This document shows positions 1 to 31,809 of a stretch of 38,128 nucleotides of DNA, one piece after another. How positions within the stretch are numbered: the stretch's first letter is position 1; every line of letters begins with the position of its first letter. Origin of the DNA: Diplocarpon mali (lineage: Eukaryota > Ascomycota > Leotiomycetes > Helotiales > Drepanopezizaceae); NCBI GenBank assembly GCA_024741835.1, contig JAENRP010000374.1:2419-40546 (forward strand), read 5' to 3'. The notes under the pieces were generated by a model. It was not told the DNA's origin, made no database searches, and saw only the letters and a list, made by a program, of their open reading frames with translations. The translations under genes and the position numbers were made by a program.

Positions 1-181
1 CCTAAACTGCTGCAGTACGCCTTTTGTTTTGCTCCCTTGTGCCTATTTCTCTTCGCGTCACAAAACCGGCAGTCGCGCGGCGAGTCACGCCTGCAGCCTC
101 TCTTTTGGTATAATCACACATGAAGCAGCGGAAGGCGACGTAGTTGGTACAGCTGCTGATTTCCCCCGCCCCCCCTTCCAG

Positions 182-1131
182 TGAATCCACCTCTATCCCC
201 AAGAACCCGCGCACCGACCGCCCAGTGGGCTACGCCTTCGTCGACCTCTCGACCCCAAGCGAAGCCGAGCGTGCCATTACTGAGCTGTCTGGAAAGGAGA
301 TACTGGAACGCAAGGTCTCTGTTCAGCTTGCCCGCAAGCCCGAGGCAAACGCCGATAAGGCTGAGGGTGCTGCTAGCGGTGGTGAGGGTGCTTCCGGAGG
401 TGAAGGACGTCGCAGACAATCCGGCCGTGGACGTGGCCGAGGACGCGGACGTGGAGGCCGCGGTGGACGAACCCGTGGAGAAGTGAGTGTGCACGCCTAC
501 AATCCAGAGCTTCCTACTAACATGTCCTCACAGTCCCGAGGCGAGGATGGTGCTGAGCTCCCCGCCGGAGAGGTCCTCCCTCTAACCGACACCACCAACA
601 CCGCTGAATTTAAGGACAAGGAGCCCAAGGACAAGATCGAGAAGGCTGAGAAGGCTCCCCGCCCTCCCCGGGAGAGACGTGAGCGTGGCCCTCCAGCTGA
701 TGGAATCCCATCCAAGAACAAGGTCATGGTGGCGAATCTCCCATATGATCTCTCCGAGGAGAAGGTAACGCTGAGCTGCTCCCTCTCGTGGGTCGCATCT
801 GACACAGTCACAGCTCAAGGAACTCTTTGCTGCCTATGAGCCGTCCTCCGCCAAGATCGCCCTTCGCCCAATTCCCCGCTTCATGGTCAAGAAGCTCCAG
901 GCCCGTAACGAGCCCCGCAAGGGTCGTGGCTTCGGTTTCGTCACTCTCGCCTCGGAGGAGATGCAACAGAAGGCGGTCGCTGAGATGAACGCCAAGGAGA
1001 TCGAGGGTCGCGAGATTGCGGTCAAGGTCGCCATCGACAGCCCAGACAAGACCGACGATGACATGAACGCTCCAGCTGCCGAGGCTGCCACCGAGGGCAC
1101 CAACGGCGCCGCTGAGACTACCACTGCTTAA
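182..1131 (+). CDS. RNA-binding protein with two RRM domains and an RGG linker, 5' end outside window
   Basis: Joined exons 182-482, 534-764 and 814-1131, ending at a TAA. The first exon follows a pyrimidine-rich acceptor (CCCCTTCCAG) ending at 181, so at least one upstream exon, with the start codon and the RNP2 half of RRM1, is missing. RRM1 keeps its RNP1 (VGYAFVDL). An Arg/Gly-rich linker (RGRGRGRGRGG type) follows, then RRM2 with RNP2 (VMVANL) and RNP1 (KGRGFGFVTL). The C-tail is acidic and Ala/Thr rich. Intron 483-533 is 51 nt, keeps the frame and has a perfect TACTAAC branch site; intron 765-813 is 49 nt. Known of the family: RRM plus RGG proteins bind RNA in mRNA processing or export. 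I infer an RNA-binding role but cannot name the orthologue. Confidence 0.85.
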
Positions 1132-12043: not shown

Positions 12044-14176
12044 CTATGCATGCCCCTTCGCTCGAGCCATCGGTCCCCAATTTTCTCGCGGGTTCAGCTG
12101 ATATCTGACAATTTTCTTCTTATCCTTCTCGGCGCCCAACTTCTCATCAAACACGACCTTAAGTCCCTCTCCAGCAGGTACCTCACTGGCCACCGACCCA
12201 TTCTCTCCAGGCTTCGACGGACCTCTCTGCATGATGCGATATCCAGCAGTGTTTTCCCTAAGGGCACCCTCCTTCACCGGCGCCTTTTGCCTTGTCCACT
12301 CTCTCATTATCTCCCAGACAACGTCCCAAGGTGCATTGGTCTTGAGGCTTCCTGGCTTGGTGTGGCTTCTCGTCACATGGTATCCGAGGTTTTTGATGGC
12401 GCCGCGAATGGCGTTCTCGATTGGCGTAATGCAATGAATGACTTTGGAAAGAGCTGATGGTATGAACAGGAACGGAGCAGGGTCCAGAGCTGCCGGATCC
12501 CATCTTCCAGTCTTAGTTTTCGCTGTGGGCGAGTTCGGATCTTCAGCATCGAAGATCTCCTCCATCGCCAAGGTAAGCATTCCTTCAATTCTCGAGGTAG
12601 TCTGGTAGGTATCCTTGGAAACATCTGGCAAATAATCCAGTATCCTCTGGATGAAATCGGGATCGTGGATTGGACCAGCGTACATTGGTCCTGCAATGTG
12701 CGTCTTGGATCCGCAATGCTTGCAATGCTCGGCAGCTGACGGCCCTTGTCCATAAACATGCTTCCAGTAATATGTTCCCTTCTTACCCTCGACCAGCTTG
12801 TTTCTCCCAACCGTCTGCGTTGTCCAGGCTCCACACCCGGTATCACAGTTATACACCACCATAGTATTCCCAGCCAAGTACTTGACATCAGCAGGTGACT
12901 TGTGAATCCGGACGAAAACTCGAGCGTAAAAGTCGATAGAGAGGGATAGGAGAGGTTCCATGGCCATACCGTAGCGGGCTGCAGAGGTCGCAATTGCATG
13001 TAAAATAAGTCTCAGCCCACCTTCATGCGATTGCGGCCCTTTGATCGTCGTTCCACCGTAGAGTGAGAATGCCTTCTCCGGATATCCATTCGATGCCCAT
13101 ACTCCCGCGTCAGTGCAAGTCACACATAGAAGCCCCCCATCATCCCGAACTGCCTGTACTGCAGCATCCAAGAATGGAGCTGCAGTTCCATACGGATCGA
13201 GGTCGATAACGTCATATTTCGTGCTGGCTTGGGGCCTGCCTTTGTCGTCTTTGCAATCCTCGCCAACTTTACTATACATGTATGCCATGGCGTTGCACGT
13301 CAGTGCTTTTATTTTTTCCTCCAGTTTGTTATGTTTGACATTCATCTCGATCGTTTCTGTAGCTTCTGGCAGAAGGTCATTCGCTGTGATCGAGGTTGCA
13401 AATGGTATCTCATGAGCATAGCGAAGCGCTCGTAAACCAGTAGCAGACAAAGCATCCAGGATTGTAAATGCGAATTTGGACTTCTTGCTTTCGGCGGACC
13501 TCGCTGTCGTTGTCGGCTTGGTACCTTGCCCTTCGATCCCAGCTTCTGGGCCTGCGACGGGTGCTGGCTCTGAATCGCCAGTAGTCGTCAGACCGACGGC
13601 CTCGCTACCGTTCGCCAAAACCTCTATCTCCTTAGGTATGTCACTGCCTTTTCCTCCCATTGCAGCTTCAAATTCGGAAACATGCGGTCCGTTCTCCAGC
13701 TTGCTTGCTTTCCTCGGTACATCATTCAGCCCCTCCTCTTCCCGTTTTCGTTTCTTCTCTTTAGCCTTGGCAGCAGCTCGTTGCTTGTGTTTCTCTATCG
13801 TTCTCTTCTTCTTCTCTAATACCTCTTCCCCGTAAGCTTTGATTACCAGGACACTCAAGTCTCGATTGAACTGCTGGATCGGATTGTAGAATACGGATTG
13901 GGGTTGGTTTTCGCCTTTGGGAGTTGCTTGTGGAACTGCAGGACCTGATGCCGGCGTAAGGATGTATGCCAGTCCTTCTTTGATGGTCGTGTATTCCTTG
14001 CCTTCGTGGAAAAGGTGTTGGCCGACCGCTGGCGCAGCCGTGATATCTACAGGGGCTGTAGTCATTGTTGCGCTCGAGAAGAATCGATAGAAGAAACTGA
14101 GCTGCCGGAGCTGGCAATTCGAGGTTTTCCTCTTGCCGAATCTCCAGAGGGCTATCAAGGGAGCTTTCATGCGCAT
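12044..14176 (-). CDS. TRM1: tRNA (guanine26-N2)-dimethyltransferase
   Basis: Single intronless frame of 710 aa. It shows the class I SAM-binding segment (DALSATGLRALRYAHEIP, from 241), the catalytic DPYG (327-330), and conserved YGGTTIKGPQSHEGGLR. Two Cys pairs, CDTGC (from 444) and CKHC (485-488), are likely zinc ligands. A basic KKRKR stretch near 141-145 could direct nuclear import. Known: Trm1 makes m2,2G26 in cytosolic and mitochondrial tRNAs. The first 37 residues are basic and lack acidic residues, with FFYRFFSSA just before a second Met at 38 (14063-14065); this looks like a mitochondrial presequence. In yeast, alternative starts give the two isoforms, and the same is inferred here. 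The 3' flank faces the transposon-bearing region. Confidence 0.96.
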   Translation of the reverse strand: MRMKAPLIALWRFGKRKTSNCQLRQLSFFYRFFSSATMTTAPVDITAAPAVGQHLFHEGKEYTTIKEGLAYILTPASGPAVPQATPKGENQPQSVFYNPIQQFNRDLSVLVIKAYGEEVLEKKKRTIEKHKQRAAAKAKEKKRKREEEGLNDVPRKASKLENGPHVSEFEAAMGGKGSDIPKEIEVLANGSEAVGLTTTGDSEPAPVAGPEAGIEGQGTKPTTTARSAESKKSKFAFTILDALSATGLRALRYAHEIPFATSITANDLLPEATETIEMNVKHNKLEEKIKALTCNAMAYMYSKVGEDCKDDKGRPQASTKYDVIDLDPYGTAAPFLDAAVQAVRDDGGLLCVTCTDAGVWASNGYPEKAFSLYGGTTIKGPQSHEGGLRLILHAIATSAARYGMAMEPLLSLSIDFYARVFVRIHKSPADVKYLAGNTMVVYNCDTGCGAWTTQTVGRNKLVEGKKGTYYWKHVYGQGPSAAEHCKHCGSKTHIAGPMYAGPIHDPDFIQRILDYLPDVSKDTYQTTSRIEGMLTLAMEEIFDAEDPNSPTAKTKTGRWDPAALDPAPFLFIPSALSKVIHCITPIENAIRGAIKNLGYHVTRSHTKPGSLKTNAPWDVVWEIMREWTRQKAPVKEGALRENTAGYRIMQRGPSKPGENGSVASEVPAGEGLKVVFDEKLGAEKDKKKIVRYQLNPRENWGPMARAKGHA

Positions 14177-17100
14177 GCGCGATTGTTAAGGTGTGCAATG
14201 ATGAAGCCTATTCAAAGTTGCAAAATCTCGAGGTGTTCTGCCGAGCGGTGAAAGCCCACGGTCTCGACGTGATAGATGCTAAAAATTAAAGGGAGTATTT
14301 AGAAAAGCAAGCAAGGCAAGGTGAGCACTTTAAACTAAGAAATAACAAAGGTAAGCCTTATTCTATGTGTTACAATTTTATACTGCTTAATATATCTCGC
14401 AGAAACCAGATTACGCTCTAGATAGCTAGAAGCTGTCTAGTTCTTGGATCTGTACCATTGTTTGATATTTTTACAACTACCTATCTTATGATACGTAGAA
14501 TATGACCAGCAAGTATTTTTCTTCCAATCATTTAATTTCGAGTGTAGTGGTTCAAAATCAGGGCGAAAGGTAAGAACTATGAACATTCAGAATGGCAAGC
14601 GAAGCAAGCCGAGCGATTTTATCCTTCGATTTTTAACAAAGGACTCTGAAGCATTGATTACGCCTTGGCAAAGTACCACAGAGATACAGTGAAGAAGTGT
14701 TCTCCTTTGTCTTTTAAGTAATAAAAAAGTCAACAACCATAGCAGAGAAAGATAAGAAATTACACACTGCTAGACAGATCTTGATTCAAAGACTTCTGTA
14801 GTAGTTATTTTCTTAGTTATGTCAAGGATTATCAGAATTGTATTGTACTGAGAACAAGTGTCCAAGGGGCTCCACTGTCAACAGGAAACAACGCTTAAGC
14901 GCTACACCTCTATATTAGGCATTGAGCCGCACAGGAGCCAGTCTCCTAGTGCTCTGACAGGTGCACAGTCAAGATTTGTGGATTAAAATCTTCAAAGTAT
15001 ATTGATTATCTTTTCTTATTTCAAGTATTGTGGATTTGATCCTAGCTATTTAGCTCCTGGCATTTGAGATTGAAAGTCGTATGTCACAGGCCAAATGAAT
15101 AGTCCCACATTAGTATACTACAAAGGGCTCTTTAGTCGTTTGCACAGATGAAAATACTTTCATGCGGTGTTTTTTCGGTGAAAGTCCTTCGTACTTTGAA
15201 GTATTTATGCCTCAAAGACCAACCGCTGTTCCGCCTCCTGTTGAGCTCAAGGATCCATGCTTAAAAATAGTTTGTCTTTTCGTGTCTCAAACCACGGTGG
15301 ATCAGTTTCCTACCTATTCAGCTCCTAGCATTTGATTATCAGAGCAAAACTCTCTTTTCCCTGGTAGTGAATGACTACTCTAGGAGATAACAACTCAACA
15401 CCGATACGCGGTGTCTCCTACGAACCTGCGGATTCTCTAGATTATATTTAAAGAATCTGCAAAGCCAAGATTGAGTACTTTCGGCTCCAGAATAATTAAA
15501 CCCTGAGTTGAATAAAGCTAGAATCTTCAAGAGCTTTAGAATGAATTTCTATTATTACTTTTATGATAAACACCCTATACTTTCGAATCTTTCTGACGTA
15601 TTCTAAGATTACTTAAACATACACTTATACCTAAAGGAAGAGCTTAGCAATAGATATAAACAGCAATAAGGCGGGTCATAGTTAATAAGGAAAAGGAAAA
15701 GAGGAAAGGACATAATATAAATCTTTACAGCTTTAAAATTTTTCTTCAAAGATCTTCTTCGAAAGCTAAAGTCGATAAGAAAGGTTATAACTAAGAGCCG
15801 TCACTAGTTATCAAAAAACATAATATAACCAAGTAAATAGTCTCATTAGTAAGAATGGCATGCCTTCGGATAAGGGACCTAAGGCGACCTTTTTTATCCA
15901 GGCACCTCTTTAAGAATTTGCTTACCTAATACCTAGAGAGAATAATTATTAACTAAGATACAAGTAAGACTCTTGTCTAAGGAATCAGGGTCTATAGGAA
16001 TAATAGGCTAAATGAGGAATCGCAAGGAGCTTTCATACTAGTTTCTCCTTGCACCTAATCCAACTATAGCGTTTCTCACTTATGCTATATAGTTTAGAAC
16101 TAATTTAGCATGCTACATAGGGGGGAGAATTTCTACTCAATGGGGATTTCGATCCATTATACTCGACATTGATATAAATCGAGAGCACTGCAGCCTATGG
16201 TAAAGTATTGTTTTGCGTGATAACTATACACAGAGTACCGAGATACCCCGACTAGCTTGTGTATCCTGTCAATAGGGAATGAAGAGAGGGAGTAAGACGC
16301 AAACTTGATCAGATTTCGACCAAATCCCAGCTACACTCACGGTAAATGTTGAGCGCATAATTTACCCTGTCAAGATAAAGACCCCCAAGTCTACTCCCTG
16401 CACTTGATAGGGTACAATATATAATCGCCATACTCGCACTTCTGTTCAGTACAATAGTAGAAGTGCAGAGCCCCAGAAATGACTGGAAGTATGTTAAGTT
16501 GGAGTGCGGCGTTACAAAGGGAGGCCTGAGCACCCGTCTGTGGTGCACGAAGTCCTTACTAGACTAGGTAGGTAAGCTTTAAATATACATCGTGTAGTGG
16601 AGAACACAAAGCATATTGTCTTTTCGAGAAGGTCGTATCTGCCAGCGCCTTACTCCGAAGGCTAGGATCCTTAAATGTCAGCGACACGAGAGATAATATT
16701 CCCTTCTAAAAACACAACGGAGCAAAATCAGAACAGAAATCCATTACTTGGTAGGAAGCAGAAAAAGAGCGGGATACTTTGAACCTTGATACTAGGTTTG
16801 ATTGGCTTTAGAGTCTGCAGGCTATATATTGGTTCTAGCCTGGTCTCTTTCTCATCTCGAGGAAAGCAAATCAGACTTCTAGCAATTAAGCTTTTCGCGT
16901 TCGATTTACAATATACGTCGATGTACGAAGTATGTTTTCTTTCCCCGGTAGTGGAACGCGATCCCGTGGGTTCCCGGATCCACCGTACTCAAATAAACAT
17001 GTATGAAAACAGGGAGTGGAGAAAGTCGGCGGGGTTCTCCAACACGCAAACAACCTCGTACCTCCAAGGCTTACTGCAATGCACCCGTGGGATCTCACCG

Positions 17101-22341: not shown

Positions 22342-23055
22342 CTACGAGCCAACTCGAAGATTCCCACTATGCTGTCTCGGCAACACCAACTCTCCATCTC
22401 GACTCCTCGGCTCGTAATCCAGCGCCTTGAAGCCGAAACGCGCCAGCTCCACGCCGTAGTTCTCCGTCACCCAGTGCGCTATCATGTCCATGCCCGCGCA
22501 CGCGCCGCCCGCCGTCCAGATGGCGCCCTCCTCGACCCACTGCTCCTCGACCCAGTCGACCTGCGGCCGGGTCTGCCGTGCGAGCTCCAGCAGGGCGTGG
22601 TTCGTCGTCGCCCGCTTGCCGTCCAGCACGCCCGTCGACGCGATCGCCAGCGCGCCCGTGCAGGTGGTGAAGAGCCCTCTGCCGGCGGCGACGTGGCGCT
22701 GGATGAACGCGGCAAAGTCGTCTGAGAGCGTGTACCGGGACGGGTCGGGCCCGCCGATCAGCAGGTAGTCGAGTGGCGGGCAGGTCGCGCAGGTCGTGGT
22801 GGGCAGCACGTTGAAGGTGGCCGTCATCTGGACCGGGGAGAGGCTCGTGTTGATGTGGTGGAAGGTTATGTCGATTGCTTTGGCGGTGAGGCCGGCGCTG
22901 CCCGCTATGCCGGCGTCTTCGTAGGATGAGATGACGGCTGTGGAGGTGGTGGAGAGCATGTCGAGGGGCCCGACCACGTCGAGCATCTGGTAGGGAATCA
23001 TGAGGACGCCGAAGTTGATGGGCGCCGTGTTCGATGCTGCTTCTTGGGTGGTCAT
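22342..23055 (-). CDS. DJ-1/PfpI family protein, isonitrile-hydratase-like
   Basis: Single exon, 237 aa, a full-length domain. It begins with the strand FGVLMIPYQMLDVVGPLDML, has YLLIGGPD (98-104), and the nucleophile elbow LFTTCTGALAIAS with Cys132. This is followed by VLDGKRATTNHALL with His153, the pattern of the class I glutamine amidotransferase-like fold. IWTAGGACAGMDMIAHWV matches the C-terminal segment of the InhA-like branch. Known: relatives include isocyanide hydratases, chaperones and glyoxalases, so the reaction cannot be fixed. The neighbourhood gives no clue. The C-terminal 20 residues are polar and less typical. A shared promoter is unlikely because the next gene is far away. 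Confidence 0.88.
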   Translation of the reverse strand: MTTQEAASNTAPINFGVLMIPYQMLDVVGPLDMLSTTSTAVISSYEDAGIAGSAGLTAKAIDITFHHINTSLSPVQMTATFNVLPTTTCATCPPLDYLLIGGPDPSRYTLSDDFAAFIQRHVAAGRGLFTTCTGALAIASTGVLDGKRATTNHALLELARQTRPQVDWVEEQWVEEGAIWTAGGACAGMDMIAHWVTENYGVELARFGFKALDYEPRSRDGELVLPRQHSGNLRVGS

Positions 23056-24337
23056 CTTGGAGCTGTGAGGTACGAGGGAACTGTCGGTTAGTTCTTGGAT
23101 TGTTAGTAGTTGCTGAGGGAGGCGGAGAATGGATTATCTACTGGATACTATTAGCCTCATATACGCAGCGTACCTATAGTCCACCTTGTCCTTTTCGAGA
23201 AGGTAGCTGTCCTTCCATTTACTTACTTTGTTGCCGGCCAAACAAACGCTATATGAAAGTATACTTGACCATGTAAAATCGCCGAAAGCCGATATTGAGA
23301 ATATACTATTACAGGGTTTGTTTGGCCCATAACAGAACACCTAAACATGGGCGTAGAGCAGCTATTCATCCAAGACCGTTTGATACATGGGTAATCATTG
23401 CGCCGCGTTTGGATCCTAATAAGAACTTTCAGTTTAGTAGACTCAGGTTTCACCTCGCAGATAATGAATTCCCGTCCTGGCAGTTGAGGAGCCAGCGGTC
23501 TAACGAAGATCCAGGCTTGAGGGCCGGAAGAGTTCACGTTGAAGTCTCGCTTACGTCTCAATTATCCATCAGCAAGCCTAGCCCAATCTCCAAAGATAGT
23601 ATTGATCTTTTTGCAATCATGTAAACAGCCTCCTGTCTTCAATAGCACTAGCTCTTGCTTACGCTAGGGCAGTATAACCTCATCTTACACTTTTATTCTC
23701 TCGCAGTATATCATGATATGCTACATCTCCGATATGTCTTGATACCAACTATCAATCAATACCCTCTAGACCACTGCGGATGGATCACCACTCACCAGCG
23801 CCACCGAAACAAGACTCGTCATACATCGGTGAATTACACGCTTGCTATGCGTGACTTGGCACCAGGGGAGCGGTCATTGCATGTGAGGGGAGTCGGATGG
23901 TAGACGGGGCGGCTGATTGACAGCATAATATACTAGATATATAGTTGACGAGTGTGCTTCCATGACCTGCCTACTCCACTCATGCAGTTGTTGATGTTAG
24001 CGTTGGCTTTGTAGCAAGCCGATGACCATATTCGTTGTATTATATCACCCACGTTTGCCAACATGACCACTAACCTAAAATAGCAAAGGTGATTCTGGAG
24101 AGAAATTTCTCATTTTGCTACCTGTCTTCAATATCTCCAGTTTCAATAAGCACCATAAGCATATCAAGGCCACTGTCCGACCAGACTGGTAGCGCTTAAG
24201 AGTATGGGCCTCCAGCCGATCCAAGACGCCGACCACAAGCTGGTGACATCCGAAATGCGCGAGACAAGAATTGAAAGAGAAGAGGAAAATATCAAGGAGG
24301 AAGAAGAGTAAGAAGAATAAATCACAAGATAATAATA
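23056..24337. other. Intergenic, no supported gene
   Basis: 1.3 kb, AT-rich in part. Short frames on both strands lack domains or convincing splice structure. Confidence 0.5.
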
Positions 24338-25551: not shown

Positions 25552-27072
25552 TCAAGCAACAGCAGCCTGCCTAGTCATCTCACTCTTCGCCTGCGTCACA
25601 TTAGCCGCCGGCTGCGCCGGCTGCACGCCCACCCGCTCCTTGGCCAAGATATCGACTAGCAGCGGAGAAGGGCGGTTGTCCTTGCCCACAGCGGGGTAAA
25701 CAGCCTGGTTGTTCTTGTAACGCTGCACGTTTTCGATGTACATATCAAAGAGGTAGGAGGAGTCCATGGGGCCGCCCTTGGCTTCGGGGTGGAATTGAGT
25801 CGAGAATATGGGGCGTGTTTTGTGGATCATGCCTACTTTTGTTAGCTGATATACATCGCAGAAGGGACAAGGAGCTCGTGCCTTCGTTAGAGCCGTCATT
25901 CAGGTTCACAAAGTACTCTTTGAAATCAGATGGTAAGGTCGGCGTGTCGACAGCATACCCGTGATTCTGACTCGTGATGTGGCATTGCCCGGTTGTCAAG
26001 TCCAAAGCTGGGATATTGTGCGCGCGGTTTCCATACTTCAGCTTGATGGTTCTGGCACCAGCTGCAAGAGCAAGCAACTGATGGCCGAGACATATACCGA
26101 AAACGGGTACCTGGGACGTCTCCATCAGACGGCTCAAGTGGTAGACGGTCTCCTGGCAATGCGTTGGGTCTCCCGGGCCGTTGGAAATAAATACGCCATC
26201 AAAATGGTGAGCGACCTTGTGGATAGGATAATCGTACGGGAAGACTGTCACAGAAGCACCGCGGGAGACGAGCGAGCGGAGAATATTCTCTTTGACACCG
26301 CAGTCGATAACAGCAACGTGCATATCACCGCTGGAGGACGAGACGTGGAAAGGAGCCTTGGTGCTAACTTTCTTCACGAGGTTGATCTGCTCAGGGTCGA
26401 TGAAAGCCTCGTCTTGGTCTGCATCATATTCCTCACCAATTGTGATTCTAGCCAAGGAAGAACCGACTTCTCGGAGATGGGTGACAATGGCACGTGTATC
26501 GACACCAGATATGGCTGGCACGCCTTCACGGGCACACCACTCAGCCAAAGACTCCACGGCTGTCCAGTGGCTGTATTTCTCCGCGTAGTCTGCGACCACG
26601 ACACCGACGCACTGGATATTAGGAGACTCAAAGTATTTCAGCAGGCCGTGCTCATCGCGGGCAGAGGAAGGAACACCGTAGTTACCGATGAGCGGCTGTG
26701 TGAAGACGAGAATCTGGCCGCGGTAGGAGGGGTCGGTCATTGACTCGGGGTAACCCACGAGGGAGGTGGTGAAGACTGCTTCACCTGAGATGTTGGACTT
26801 GGCTCCGAAGGATTTGCCGTGAAAGACTGGTCCGTCCTATCTGAGGTCAGCAACTGTCTCGCCCCCGCTCGTCTTTCTCATCCTGGAGGTTGACATACTC
26901 TGATTGTAAAGGTTGCTCGATCATGCGATATGGGTGTAGCCCGTGGGCGGGTAGCTGGCATAGCACGACCAGCACTTCCCTCGACCGTGGCCATGAACCG
27001 GGCCTGCATTGCCATCCGCTGGATGCCTCCCGCCGGCTTAAAAGCCGCGGGTCTCATAAAGCGAGCAAACAT
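25552..27072 (-). CDS. CPA1: Carbamoyl-phosphate synthase, arginine-specific, small (glutaminase) subunit
   Basis: Three exons: 27072-26899, 26836-25882 and 25832-25552, coding 469 aa. Residues 1 to about 45 are basic with many Ala and Met, a likely mitochondrial presequence, as in Neurospora arg-2. The CPSase small-chain domain follows ([21 protein letters not shown]). The class I amidotransferase domain has ISNGPGDP, nucleophile Cys307 in GICLGHQ, and His391/Glu393 in FHPEAKGG. Known: it releases ammonia from glutamine for the large subunit, the first step of arginine synthesis. Intron 1 is GT-AG, 62 nt. Intron 2 (25881-25833, 49 nt) starts with GC; no GT donor can restore [12 protein letters not shown], and a CTAAC branch lies before the acceptor. 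The ATG has A at -3. The leader carries the AAP uORF, ending 54 nt upstream. Confidence 0.96.
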
Positions 27073-27126
27073 TCTGTACGTTATTTTTCGGTATAAGTAG
27101 TTAGGTATAAATGTGTCAAGAGATTT

Positions 27127-27455
27127 TCAGTTTACTGAAGCTTTCCAGATATGATCTACAGAAGGTTAGTTAGTTGGCAGTGAGTAGGGAACCAGAAGAT
27201 TGGAATTTGGCGGACCTGAAATATAATCCTATACTGAGTTAGCAGATATCCTTGATAGCATCTTCCAATTGCAAATATATAGAATGTAGAGGGAAAGAAG
27301 GTTTTGGGAAAGTCCAGGTCTAGTTCCCAGAGGGCACCACAAACAAAAGATAGACCAGCCTGATCTCCCTTCCGCCCTCCATGGATCAAAGAATAAGATA
27401 GGATAGAGACCATGCTGCTTACCTGGGACGTGAAGACTGACGGGCGCCCACTCAT
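27127..27455 (-). CDS. Arginine attenuator peptide uORF, three exons including a 13-nt microexon
   Basis: The spliced uORF has 24 codons. Exon 1 (27455-27423) encodes MSGRPSVFTSQ and ends at a GTAAGC donor. Microexon 27228-27216 (13 nt) encodes DYIS plus one base; it follows CTAAC...TATAG and precedes GTCCGC. Exon 3 (27155-27127) completes Asp16 and encodes HIWKASVN and a TGA; its acceptor CTGTAG follows a CTAACTAAC branch region. The introns are 194 and 60 nt. The result matches the AAP family, known from Neurospora arg-2 and yeast CPA1, in length and in the key Asp12 and Trp19. Known: the AAP stalls ribosomes when arginine is abundant and so lowers CPA1 synthesis. The ATG has C at -3, a weak context that would allow leaky scanning. 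Unspliced, the first exon reads on for 99 codons to a TAG. Confidence 0.85.
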
Positions 27456-27661: not shown

Positions 27662-29900
27662 TCAAGAAGACAAGGTGAATAGCGGTGACATGGAATAATA
27701 TTGGTACGTCACAAAAAATTGTGACAAGCTCCCTCATAATCCCACACCAGTGTGCCACTAGCTAAACATTTGTTCATGGGATTGACGGAGTAGGGAAACC
27801 CCTTCTCTCGACTTATATCAAGAGAAAGTGGTATGGTGACCAATATAACTAGCATATAGGTAGGTACCTTATCATACGTCCTGCCTTGGATACAAGATCT
27901 AGAGCTGCCATGTGGGCGCCAGAGTCTTGCAGGAATCTCCAGATCCAAATGCAGCCTGAAGATTTTCCCAGGTTTTGTGCCTCTATCGTTACCTGTTACA
28001 GCCGCGCATGTAACGGCATTGCATGTGCTGGAGGCCAACAGATTTAACTCTTTGTTGGCAGGGTCGAGCTCGACTTGTTTTTCTGATTCTAATTTGTCAA
28101 GGTTTACTTACCAATCTTTGAGTATCCCTAAAAGATCAAAATCCAAAAGCCGAATTCTTCTATCTATCCGACAGAATGAGCTGATAGGCAAAGGAAAGTA
28201 CATGCATTTCATGTATGACAATTCCCGTGTTTTGCAAAACCAATCCCTGTCCTGTTCTTCTTTCTATATCTCCTTCCATGGCTTTCCTTCCTTCTAATGG
28301 AAAAGCGTGCGTTGCATTTGGAAACATCGCCTCTGAACGAACTGGTTGTCGTCTACTGCCTCCAAGAAGAGAGAGGAGTATGGTAATCGAAGGTCTGACA
28401 CGGAACAAAACGCCAAGGCCCTCACGAGCCGGCTTGGGTTCTGCTTCGTTGGGGAAGGGAAAGGTAGTGAATTCCTACGAGTACAAGATCTCATGGAAGC
28501 GCTTGGGGATCCAAGGGTGAATGATACGTGAGTCTTGTCCTCTTTGCCAAGACATTACATTGTTCTGTAGACAAACAGCCGAGATCTCTAGCCATCTCGC
28601 TTGGCTGTGCATAATGAGATGAGTCCTTCGACATACTCGAACACGACGGCTATGAGTGCGTAAACCTCAAAATGATGAATCCGAATATCTCTTCCGCTCG
28701 GTACCGAGCAGAAATCATCGCCGGATCGTGCATGACGTCTCGCATGGCCACCAAATCGCTCGATAAAATGCTTTCGGCTGTCGCATTGTGCTTGTCGATT
28801 CCCGCCCTTAGTGAGTCTCATTTTTTCCTGATCTGTTATCACTCTTCTCTTCGCCTTGGTATTCCAAGCTCACGCGATACAGTGTGCTACCTTGCCACAG
28901 GCTCCCACGCCGTCATCTCCACCGCCTCTACCATACTGCTCCCCCTATCCATCGTACGCAGCGTCACGGCTCGAGAGTCTTAGGTTCTTGTATCTAAAGC
29001 AACAAAACTATGTCAAGGACCGGGCGCGTATCAGTGGGCTGGATGACGTGGAATAGCTGGATATCGAGCACATGTCACTGCTCTATACGGCGTTTAGGAG
29101 AATCAGAGGTGTGGAACTGACACATGTATCACTCTCCTTCTCCAATCTCTGTCTTTCTCAATAACGACCTTAAATCGGAGAGTCTTCGCCCCTTGCAAAT
29201 GTAAGTAGAGGGGGGCGGATCCTCTTGCTTGCCGTCCTCGGTATTGGTCCAGTATAGCGCGGCACTCTCGCCGCCTATTCAGGCGAGGCTTGCGGGGCCA
29301 TTTTGGAATGAATATGCGTCTGATAAATAAGAGTACACTGGCAAGATAATCCTTCGTATTGACGCTCCGCTGGTCCTCCAAGAGCGCTGCTGTGGAGGCA
29401 GAGCTAATAATCGACGGCTTAAGGGTCAAGCCAGGACTCAGGAGCGAGCTAGATGGAATGGAGAGAAGGCATATGGAAGAACTGCTCTGTAGAGTGTAGA
29501 GAATAAAGCATTGAGATAGAGGCAATAGCTGAAGACTTCATTTGGTAGAATAAAATGTATGGCAAAAGATGTTCATTTCAGATTGACTTATTGGTTACTG
29601 ATTTCTGGTCACTGGACAGGTAAATTAGTAGAGCATGAGCTGTTGAGTGTTGAATAAATCTCGTACAACTTCTCATTCGGGCTACGAATGCTCTCATCTT
29701 GAACGCGAAGCACATAAATTCAATTTAACAGTTCATGAATGCAAGGCCACTTGGAGGATTTTGCTGATTCGTGTGCAGAAAAATCTTTTAATTGCCTCGT
29801 ATCTAAGGCAAAACTGAACTAAAACCCGACGCGTCTACAGCCGCCGAAACTCAACGCAAACCAACCATCTCAAGTCCCCCTTTTCATGCGCTTCGAAACA
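27662..29900. other. Intergenic, no supported gene
   Basis: 2.2 kb between the divergent CPA1 and acinus-like genes. Frames near 28160-28520, 28588-28983 and 29103-29525 overlap on opposite strands and show no domain; a minus-strand stretch at 28610-28680 (HHFEVYALIAVVFEYVEG) looks vaguely kinase-like but is too short to call. Confidence 0.45.
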
Positions 29901-29945
29901 ATGCATGCTTGCTCTCACCACACTCATCATGACAGACTGGAATAA
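29901..29945 (+). other. Short uORF overlapping the start of the acinus-like gene
   Basis: ATG at 29901 opens a 14-codon frame that ends at TAA 29943-29945, past the main ATG at 29929. Ribosomes using it would miss the main start. It counts only if transcription starts upstream of 29901. Confidence 0.35.
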
Positions 29946-31809
29946 ACTCAAGGTTGCTGAACTGCGCGCGGAGCTCAAGAGAAGAGGCCTGCCCCAGACC
30001 GGACTGAAACCTGCGCTTGTGGCTCGTCTGGCGGAAGCAGAAGCAGAGAACGGGAATCAAAACGAGCACGAAGATGGCACGGAGAGCGAGGCGACTATCC
30101 AGGCGCTGGATGTGAGTTCTGCGGCCGCGGCTTCGCCAGATTCTATCAGCCCTGTGCTTGCGTCTGCGTCTGCGGATGTCTCTGCCCCTCGAACGAGAGA
30201 GTCAGAGGTAGAGGCTGTAGAGAAGACCGAAGCGCTAGAAGAGGCTGCCCAGGTTCAAGCAGCGGAACCAGAGGTAGAGCTCCTACCGGCTACCTCTGAA
30301 GAGGATGTCAAGGACCAGCAATCAGAGCCCTTGCCAGCTACTGTCGAAGAGCAGGTACCCGCGCTGGAAGCCCACACGTCTGCTCTCCCCTCCGTCGAGC
30401 CTAGGGAGGCAAACGAAGATCAGAAGAAGCGCAAACGTAGGTCGGAGAGTCCCCCTCCTACTGCGACGGACTCTGTACGAAAGCGCTTCCGCACCGACGA
30501 CGAGTCGGAGAGAGCTGCTTCCACCCACAGCGACGGTGGACTGGTCGAGCAGCACGGCATAGACGCGGATATCATCACACAGGATACCGAGGATGCACAG
30601 ATGGAGGATATCAACGGAATGGGCGCCGACGACAATACGGCTGCAGACATGGGAGACAGACCTGGAGCGGAAGGCGCGTTGGACAACTCTACGTCCCCAT
30701 CAAACTCGCGACGCGACTCTCGATTCAAGAGCCTCTTCCCCGAAACCACCAACCCAACAACGACTGGTGACATCCGCGAATCCGAAGAGCGCGAACCAGA
30801 GCGCCTTATTGCTCCCTCTATCCACCCCGCGACTCCGGCTCTCTACATCCGCGACTTCATGCGCCCCCTCAATCCAAGCCAGCTGCAATCTCACCTCGCC
30901 TACCTTGCGGCGCCACCCGGCCAGGAAGAAGACCCCGACGTTGTCAGTACTTTCTACATCGATCCAATTCGCACACACGCCTTCGTCTCCTTCACCAAGG
31001 TATCCGCTGCAGCACGCGTCCGCTCCGCCCTTCACGACCGCATCTGGCCCGACGAGAAGACTAGAAAGCCACTCTGGGTCGACTTCGTGCCTGTGGAGAA
31101 AGTCGAGCTGTGGATTGAGCAGGAGCAGGACATGCGAGGCGGTGGACGCGGGGGCTTGAAATGGGAGGTTCTCTACGACACGAATGAGGAGGGGATTATC
31201 ACGGCTACATTGCAAGAAGTTGGCAGCATCCCCCGCTCAAGCCAAAACCACCAGCCTTCCATGGCAGATTCCTCTCCTCAAGCTGCACAGCCTCGCAATG
31301 TGCACATCCCCACCTCGCCACTCCAGAACCGTGGGCAAGCTACAGCTTTCTCGACGGGTAGAGAGCGTTTAGATGACTTGTTCAACTGCACGGCTTCCAC
31401 ACCGGCGCTGTACTGGCAGTCCGTCTCGGAGGATATCGTCAATCGGCGCCTTGATAGTATCTGCAAGTCGCTCTCATCGGATGCTGCTTCTGGGCTTCCG
31501 GTTCAAGGGGACATTCATCGGTATACGTTCGAGGAGGATACGGTTGTCGATCGCGGTCCGGAGATCTTCCCTGGGATCCGCCCACCGCCTGGTTTCCGAG
31601 GTCCCAGCGGCTTTGGTCCTCGAGGGGGTGGCAGTGCCGGATTTCAGTCTCGAGGAGGGTATCCTACGCAGTACAGAGGTGGTCCGCATCACGGCGGTCG
31701 AGGCGGTTATGACTCATATAGAGGGAGAGGAGGTAGAGGTCGAGGTGATAGGAGAGATGACTGGAGGGATGACTGGAGATACGACAGACGGGACTATGGA
31801 CATCGCTGA
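29929..31809 (+). CDS. Acinus-like protein: SAP domain, RRM-like fold, RSB motif, RGG tail
   Basis: Single exon. I prefer ATG 29929 (626 aa), because MTDWNKLKVAELRAELKRRG starts the SAP domain (about 6-38) in the usual way; an in-frame ATG at 29905 would add eight residues. A long acidic, low-complexity region with an RKR-type basic patch follows. An RRM-like domain spans about 302-390 (PALYIRDFMRPLN ... THAFVSF ... KPLWVDFVP). Near 481 LDDLFNCTASTPALYWQ matches the RSB motif by which acinus binds RNPS1 and SAP18. The C-terminus is Arg/Gly rich. Known: acinus scaffolds the ASAP complex, tied to the exon junction complex and splicing. Orthology is inferred from this domain order. The cyclin-L-like gene starts 430 bp downstream on the same strand. 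Confidence 0.85.
   Translation: MTDWNKLKVAELRAELKRRGLPQTGLKPALVARLAEAEAENGNQNEHEDGTESEATIQALDVSSAAAASPDSISPVLASASADVSAPRTRESEVEAVEKTEALEEAAQVQAAEPEVELLPATSEEDVKDQQSEPLPATVEEQVPALEAHTSALPSVEPREANEDQKKRKRRSESPPPTATDSVRKRFRTDDESERAASTHSDGGLVEQHGIDADIITQDTEDAQMEDINGMGADDNTAADMGDRPGAEGALDNSTSPSNSRRDSRFKSLFPETTNPTTTGDIRESEEREPERLIAPSIHPATPALYIRDFMRPLNPSQLQSHLAYLAAPPGQEEDPDVVSTFYIDPIRTHAFVSFTKVSAAARVRSALHDRIWPDEKTRKPLWVDFVPVEKVELWIEQEQDMRGGGRGGLKWEVLYDTNEEGIITATLQEVGSIPRSSQNHQPSMADSSPQAAQPRNVHIPTSPLQNRGQATAFSTGRERLDDLFNCTASTPALYWQSVSEDIVNRRLDSICKSLSSDAASGLPVQGDIHRYTFEEDTVVDRGPEIFPGIRPPPGFRGPSGFGPRGGGSAGFQSRGGYPTQYRGGPHHGGRGGYDSYRGRGGRGRGDRRDDWRDDWRYDRRDYGHR

Follow-up and report, generated by a model that had tools for sequence, protein, structure and literature searches.

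The leader of the CPA1 gene of Diplocarpon mali raises the question of whether an arginine attenuator peptide (AAP), a well-studied arrest peptide that is usually treated as a simple short upstream open reading frame (uORF), can be put together by splicing from three exons, the middle one being just 13 nt in length. We studied this question in a window comprising the whole stretch of 38,128 nt analyzed from contig JAENRP010000374.1, and in the corresponding assembly (49.4 Mb in 676 contigs; it may be incomplete). In our assessment, the CPA1 leader very probably encodes a 24-residue AAP in three exons, with the 13-nt microexon being included always or mostly, and the predicted peptide should stall ribosomes in an arginine-dependent manner.

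Three pieces of the minus strand (27455-27423, 27228-27216, and 27155-27127) join via GT-AG borders into a uORF of 24 codons that starts with the ATG at 27455, encodes MSGRPSVFTSQDYISDHIWKASVN, and closes with a TGA ending at 27127. Re-joining the strand reproduced exactly the coordinates, the lengths, the 24-codon peptide, and the AG/GT borders that an initial annotation of this DNA had given. Exon 1 (27423..27455; 33 nt) runs from the ATG to codon 11 (MSGRPSVFTSQ) and is followed by a predicted intron of 194 nt (27229..27422; CAG/GTAAGC ... CTAAC...TATAG/G, with slashes marking the borders). The microexon GATTATATTTCAG (27216..27228; 13 nt) codes for Asp12, Tyr13, Ile14, and Ser15 and also contributes the first base of Asp16; a second predicted intron of 60 nt (27156..27215; CAG/GTCCGC ... 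CTAACTAAC...TGTAG/A) separates it from exon 3, whose uORF part (ATCATATCTGGAAAGCTTCAGTAAACTGA; 27127..27155) supplies the rest of Asp16, HIWKASVN, and the TGA. All of these features lie on the minus strand; the three exons were obtained both by splice joining and by a chain search, and the microexon by a motif search as well. The CTAAC-type branch that had been described for each intron end was seen in both introns: intron 1 carries it 10 nt before its end (branch A to the last base of the acceptor), and intron 2 possesses two overlapping copies, 14 and 10 nt before its end. Judged by sequence only, the 13-nt piece falls within the size range of microexons, i.e., internal exons of at most about 15-30 nt located between two GT-AG introns. 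Exon 3 is continuous from the end of the uORF to the CPA1 start, and the 54-nt spacer between the uORF stop and this start (27073..27126, minus strand) is devoid of any further ATG. The -3 position is occupied by C at the uORF start and by A at the CPA1 start. All 194 nt of intron 1 are free of in-frame stops.

The coding region that follows on the minus strand consists of exon 1 (26899..27072, with the ATG at 27072), exon 2 (25882..26836), and exon 3 (25552..25832, including the stop). The joined protein comprises 469 amino acids and carries the Pfam domains CPSase_sm_chain and GATase. Among the best 120 of 7999 matches, proteins from Phialocephala subalpina and Halenospora varia, both members of the Helotiales according to a taxonomy look-up, were 94% identical at 97% query coverage, and CPA1 was closest to the Helotiales among the matches listed. 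Several of the CPA1 matches are located on contigs of 1.5-2 kb that are possibly transcripts. CPSase_sm_chain yielded three matches in the assembly, namely the CPA1 locus and two neighbouring stretches on contig C31, which are taken to be the pyrimidine multienzyme. CPA1 is the gene for the small subunit of the arginine-specific carbamoyl-phosphate synthetase (CPSase), and its leader most likely holds an ordinary arginine-stalling AAP in an unusual gene structure. The second coding intron of CPA1 is of the GC-AG type (25881-25833, minus strand; 49 nt; AAG/GCACGA ... CTAAC...GTAG/GC), and joining across it affords the 469-amino-acid protein that resembles the proteins of relatives. A Diplocarpon rosae model (P0006) contains extra residues exactly at the point of this intron, perhaps because its gene finder did not consider GC donors.

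AAPs are characterized by about 24 codons with a conserved core and by their position in the leader of an arginine-specific CPSase small-subunit gene. The joined uORF has exactly 24 codons, contains both Asp12 and Trp19, as had been claimed for it, and ends 54 nt ahead of the CPA1 start; we take Trp19 to be one of the conserved AAP residues. When compared with the Pfam family Leader_CPA1 (PF08252), the joined peptide scored 57.4 bits against a cut-off of 18.5 (E 8.7e-16; positions 1-22 of 23), and residues 1-21 matched chain A of the arginine attenuator peptide structure 2xl1 (E 8.6e-10), presumably the AAP of Neurospora crassa arg-2. The unspliced frame of 99 amino acids had no family match at E values up to 1. 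The profile, the match to a peptide of solved structure, and the position before CPA1 thus support the assignment of the predicted leader peptide as the CPA1 AAP, which the initial annotation had already proposed.

Could unrelated leader DNA resemble an AAP by chance? To the initial annotation this had seemed very unlikely, and our data agree. We searched for chains containing at most two GT-AG introns, each 45-250 nt long, using as the target the 21 residues of 2xl1 that align to the joined peptide; the exons were not supplied, and partial chains with less than 40% identity were pruned. This blind search recovered exactly the three pieces, with 17 of the 21 residues identical to 2xl1. The best chain elsewhere in the window, both strands considered and the minus-strand chunks covering the true site excluded, reached 9 identities, and the best obtained after randomising the 800-nt region 300 times with a first-order Markov model reached 8. 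With up to three introns allowed from the ATG at 27455, there was a sole chain with 17 identities; the next ones have 14, ten of which stem from exon 1. Moreover, the microexon with its flanking borders, AG-GAYTAYNTNTCNG-GT, occurs a single time on the two strands of the 49.4-Mb assembly, at positions 27230-27214 of the window. The three-exon joining is hence the only one found by the chain and motif searches that gives an AAP. We found no evidence in favor of a chance likeness; it is contradicted by the 2xl1 match, the Leader_CPA1 score, the result of the chain search, the uniqueness of the chain, and the single flanked microexon. It therefore appears vanishingly improbable, and we regard it as excluded in practice.

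A contiguous AAP encoded elsewhere would have spoken against the three-exon structure, and the assembly was searched for one by profile and by codon pattern. Across all six frames, the Leader_CPA1 profile produced no match above its cut-off (a single one on contig C34 scored 15.2 bits), and a codon pattern for DYxSDHxW found no match in the assembly. The expectation that gene finders would miss this uORF is borne out to the extent that the six-frame profile search of the genome overlooks the AAP; it does not hold for Botrytis cinerea, where the 24-residue protein is annotated, nor for a Pseudogymnoascus gene model (P0024) that carries the AAP fused to CPA1. Since no match above the cut-off emerged here, surveys that deduce the loss of the AAP from contiguous frames could be wrong.

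Both of these models came from our searches among relatives. When the peptide, extended upstream by 16 in-frame residues, served as the query of a protein search, one protein from one candidate was returned: BCIN_01g06935 of B. cinerea, an annotated 24-residue protein that is identical to the joined peptide at 23 of 24 positions and carries a precomputed PF08252 assignment. Botrytis belongs, according to the taxonomy look-up, to the Helotiales, and its gene set was hand-checked against two RNA-seq tracks and the proteins of relatives (PMC6854995). The locus tag BCIN_01g06935 had no match in the literature searched. Among the best 120 of 7999 CPA1 relatives, one contained the AAP string, the Pseudogymnoascus model P0024, which starts with MSARPSVFTSQDYISDHIWKAS and continues into CPA1. 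Searching with its first 40 residues retrieved P0024 itself and a further protein, P0122 (two of five candidates), in which GVAR-MSGRPSVFTSQDYISDHIWKA is present without interruption and is followed by a frame-shifted CPA1 start. The source label of P0122, "merc," presumably denotes a catalogue assembled from the RNA of marine eukaryotes. Its frame-shifted CPA1-start part aligned with a score of 224 to the spliced DNA of the window versus 164 to the unspliced DNA; this better fit to the spliced form is what one expects of a spliced RNA, although a relative lacking the intron would look alike. In residues 25-125 of P0122 there is no stop directly after the AAP, and the frame continues across the CPA1 start in a different phase; this overrun reflects either an assembly error or an AAP uORF that extends into its main reading frame. 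Collectively, the searches indicate that the joined peptide exists in relatives, in one of them in a probably RNA-derived sequence, with the exon structure in those species being a separate matter. That the 13-nt exon is common to the relatives, or is spliced as drawn here, is something we would infer from the sequences. A search of viral contigs with the exon-1 codon pattern gave no match, and CPA1 exon 2 as the query found one locus there (42% identical; L030). Nine matches to the exon-1 pattern on bacterial and archaeal contigs were taken as chance hits, and the 700 nt downstream of each of the nine contained no motif resembling the microexon.

How might such a leader work? According to the scheme suggested by the DNA sequence, splicing would remove the introns of 194 nt and 60 nt and thereby assemble the uORF. 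Scanning ribosomes would then translate it, and some of them should bypass its start; the C at -3 of the uORF start and the A at -3 of the CPA1 start fit such leaky scanning. At high arginine levels, the nascent peptide would stall the ribosome at the uORF stop, the stalled ribosome would block scanning to the CPA1 start 54 nt downstream, and the stalling could expose the mRNA to nonsense-mediated decay. The microexon would contribute Asp12, which should correspond in the family alignment to Asp13 of the yeast CPA1 peptide. Arginine-dependent stalling by the AAP, the block to scanning, and the exposure to nonsense-mediated decay are established in yeast CPA1 and in arg-2 of N. crassa (PMC7969011, PMC2075485, PMC7049704), and the D13N substitution abolishes regulation by the yeast peptide (PMC7969011). 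As 13 nt do not make up a whole number of codons, correct inclusion of the microexon would be required for an arginine-responsive uORF, and the whole sensor would hang on two splicing events that flank a 13-nt exon with an essential Asp.

We derived the products of incomplete splicing. Skipping of the microexon yields a uORF of 18 codons (MSGRPSVFTSQIISGKLQ) that no longer contains Asp12 or any of the residues behind it; retention of intron 2 gives 31 codons without DHIWKASVN, retention of intron 1 gives 87 codons, and retention of both introns gives 99 codons. Among these derived isoforms, only full splicing provides the complete peptide. Extended by six invented padding residues, the skip product scored 13.9 bits on Leader_CPA1, which is below the cut-off of 18.5. 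AG dinucleotides end 5, 10, and 23 nt past the branch A of intron 1; the second is the acceptor of the microexon, and the third coincides with its end and is followed by GT. If the third AG were used, exon 1 (ending with CAG) would be joined to GTCCGC; the donor would thus be remade, and a second splice would take out intron 2, with the microexon gone.

These features permit an unlikely alternative in which the microexon serves as a splicing switch, with inclusion producing an arginine-responsive AAP and skipping an 18-codon uORF that should not sense arginine. The switch could operate by recursive splicing via the second acceptor at the microexon end (TTTCAG, located 23 nt past that branch A), which remakes the donor CAG/GTCCGC. 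The isoform products and the sub-threshold score of the skip product, the three AGs behind the branch A with the last at the microexon end and preceding GT, and the exon length of 13 nt would fit such a switch, as would the switch-like microexon described in the Xlr2 gene of Trichoderma virens (PMC11121469). Any exon this short, however, may be skipped occasionally. We consider it still somewhat less likely that alternative splicing of the 13-nt exon decides whether CPA1 mRNA senses arginine, with tandem acceptors either including or recursively removing the microexon; if true, the switch would add a nuclear layer of control above the ribosome-arrest peptide.

A different view of the same splice sites is that the AAP has degenerated, its pieces being no longer joined efficiently and the leader persisting as an unspliced or partly spliced relic. 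By eye, intron 2 has a weak-looking donor, and the open frame through intron 1 means that an unspliced leader yields the 99-codon uORF. Yet all 24 codons are intact, 23 of the 24 residues are shared with Botrytis, and a dead uORF is unlikely to retain these residues in three pieces together with branch sites and acceptors; we therefore view a relic as highly improbable. The fungal donor consensus is GTRNGT, and the donor GTCCGC between the microexon and intron 2 is further from it than are GTAAGC of intron 1 and GTATGT of the first coding intron of CPA1. Given this donor, inclusion of the putative microexon may be inefficient. The GC donor in the second coding intron implies that weak-looking donors are not unusual in the CPA1 gene. 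We had also ranked donor strength against introns of the genome collected ab initio (238 kb and 303 kb), and these ranks were discarded since the decoy control failed: at threshold 1 in 303 kb, 40 GT donors were collected as compared with 36 GA, 26 TG, and 33 CT decoys. Such similar counts mean that the intron sets are mostly false, so that the donor ranks, weak or not, carry no weight.

An AAP encoded by three exons that are always or mostly joined remains our preferred reading, and the peptide and the gene, by their sequences, are those of a standard AAP; the exon structure is what differs. The peptide shares with 2xl1 and the Leader_CPA1 family its length of 24 residues, identity at 17 of the 21 aligned positions, and the placement of the uORF before the CPA1/arg-2 coding region; the special feature here is that the uORF occupies three exons with a middle one of 13 nt, with the comparison to 2xl1 being made at the peptide level. 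The CPA1 leader of Saccharomyces cerevisiae is an uninterrupted uORF of 25 codons, in contrast to the three exons here. The gene, its expected regulation, and the Asp that is essential in yeast (D13N; PMC7969011) are the same. BCIN_01g06935 of B. cinerea, compared as a protein only, is alike in residues and PF08252 assignment but differs in being annotated already. The 20-nt microexon of T. virens Xlr2 is likewise very short, frame-shifting, and a carrier of essential residues in a filamentous ascomycete; it resides, however, in the coding region of a transcription factor rather than in a uORF, and RNA evidence and a glucose-dependent use are described for it (PMC11121469). The same 2024 paper states that there had been no earlier description of functional microexons in filamentous ascomycetes (PMC11121469). 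The locus studied here offers a small and testable system for microexon splicing in these fungi. Hood and colleagues (2007) reportedly discussed introns in the uORF of a fungal CPSase small-subunit gene. We found no AAP split by a microexon among the papers listed in the literature searched or in passages of PMC7049704, PMC2075485, PMC7969011, PMC5487733, and PMC9604717, and we do not claim priority.

Elsewhere in the window, the next frame of at least 230 amino acids on the upstream side of CPA1 is located on the plus strand (29818-31809) and encodes 663 amino acids with a SAP domain; it also shows a sub-threshold match to the RNSP1-SAP18 binding motif (22.5 of 27.1 bits). To us, this frame is reminiscent of Acinus-type splicing factors. 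Family matches further identify a tRNA N2,N2-dimethylguanosine methyltransferase (TRM; 12044-14185, minus strand), a DJ-1/PfpI family protein (22342-23133, minus strand), and an RRM_1 match (144-839, plus strand). The G+C content drops to 0.39 between positions 14001 and 16000, compared to 0.47-0.59 in the other 2-kb windows.
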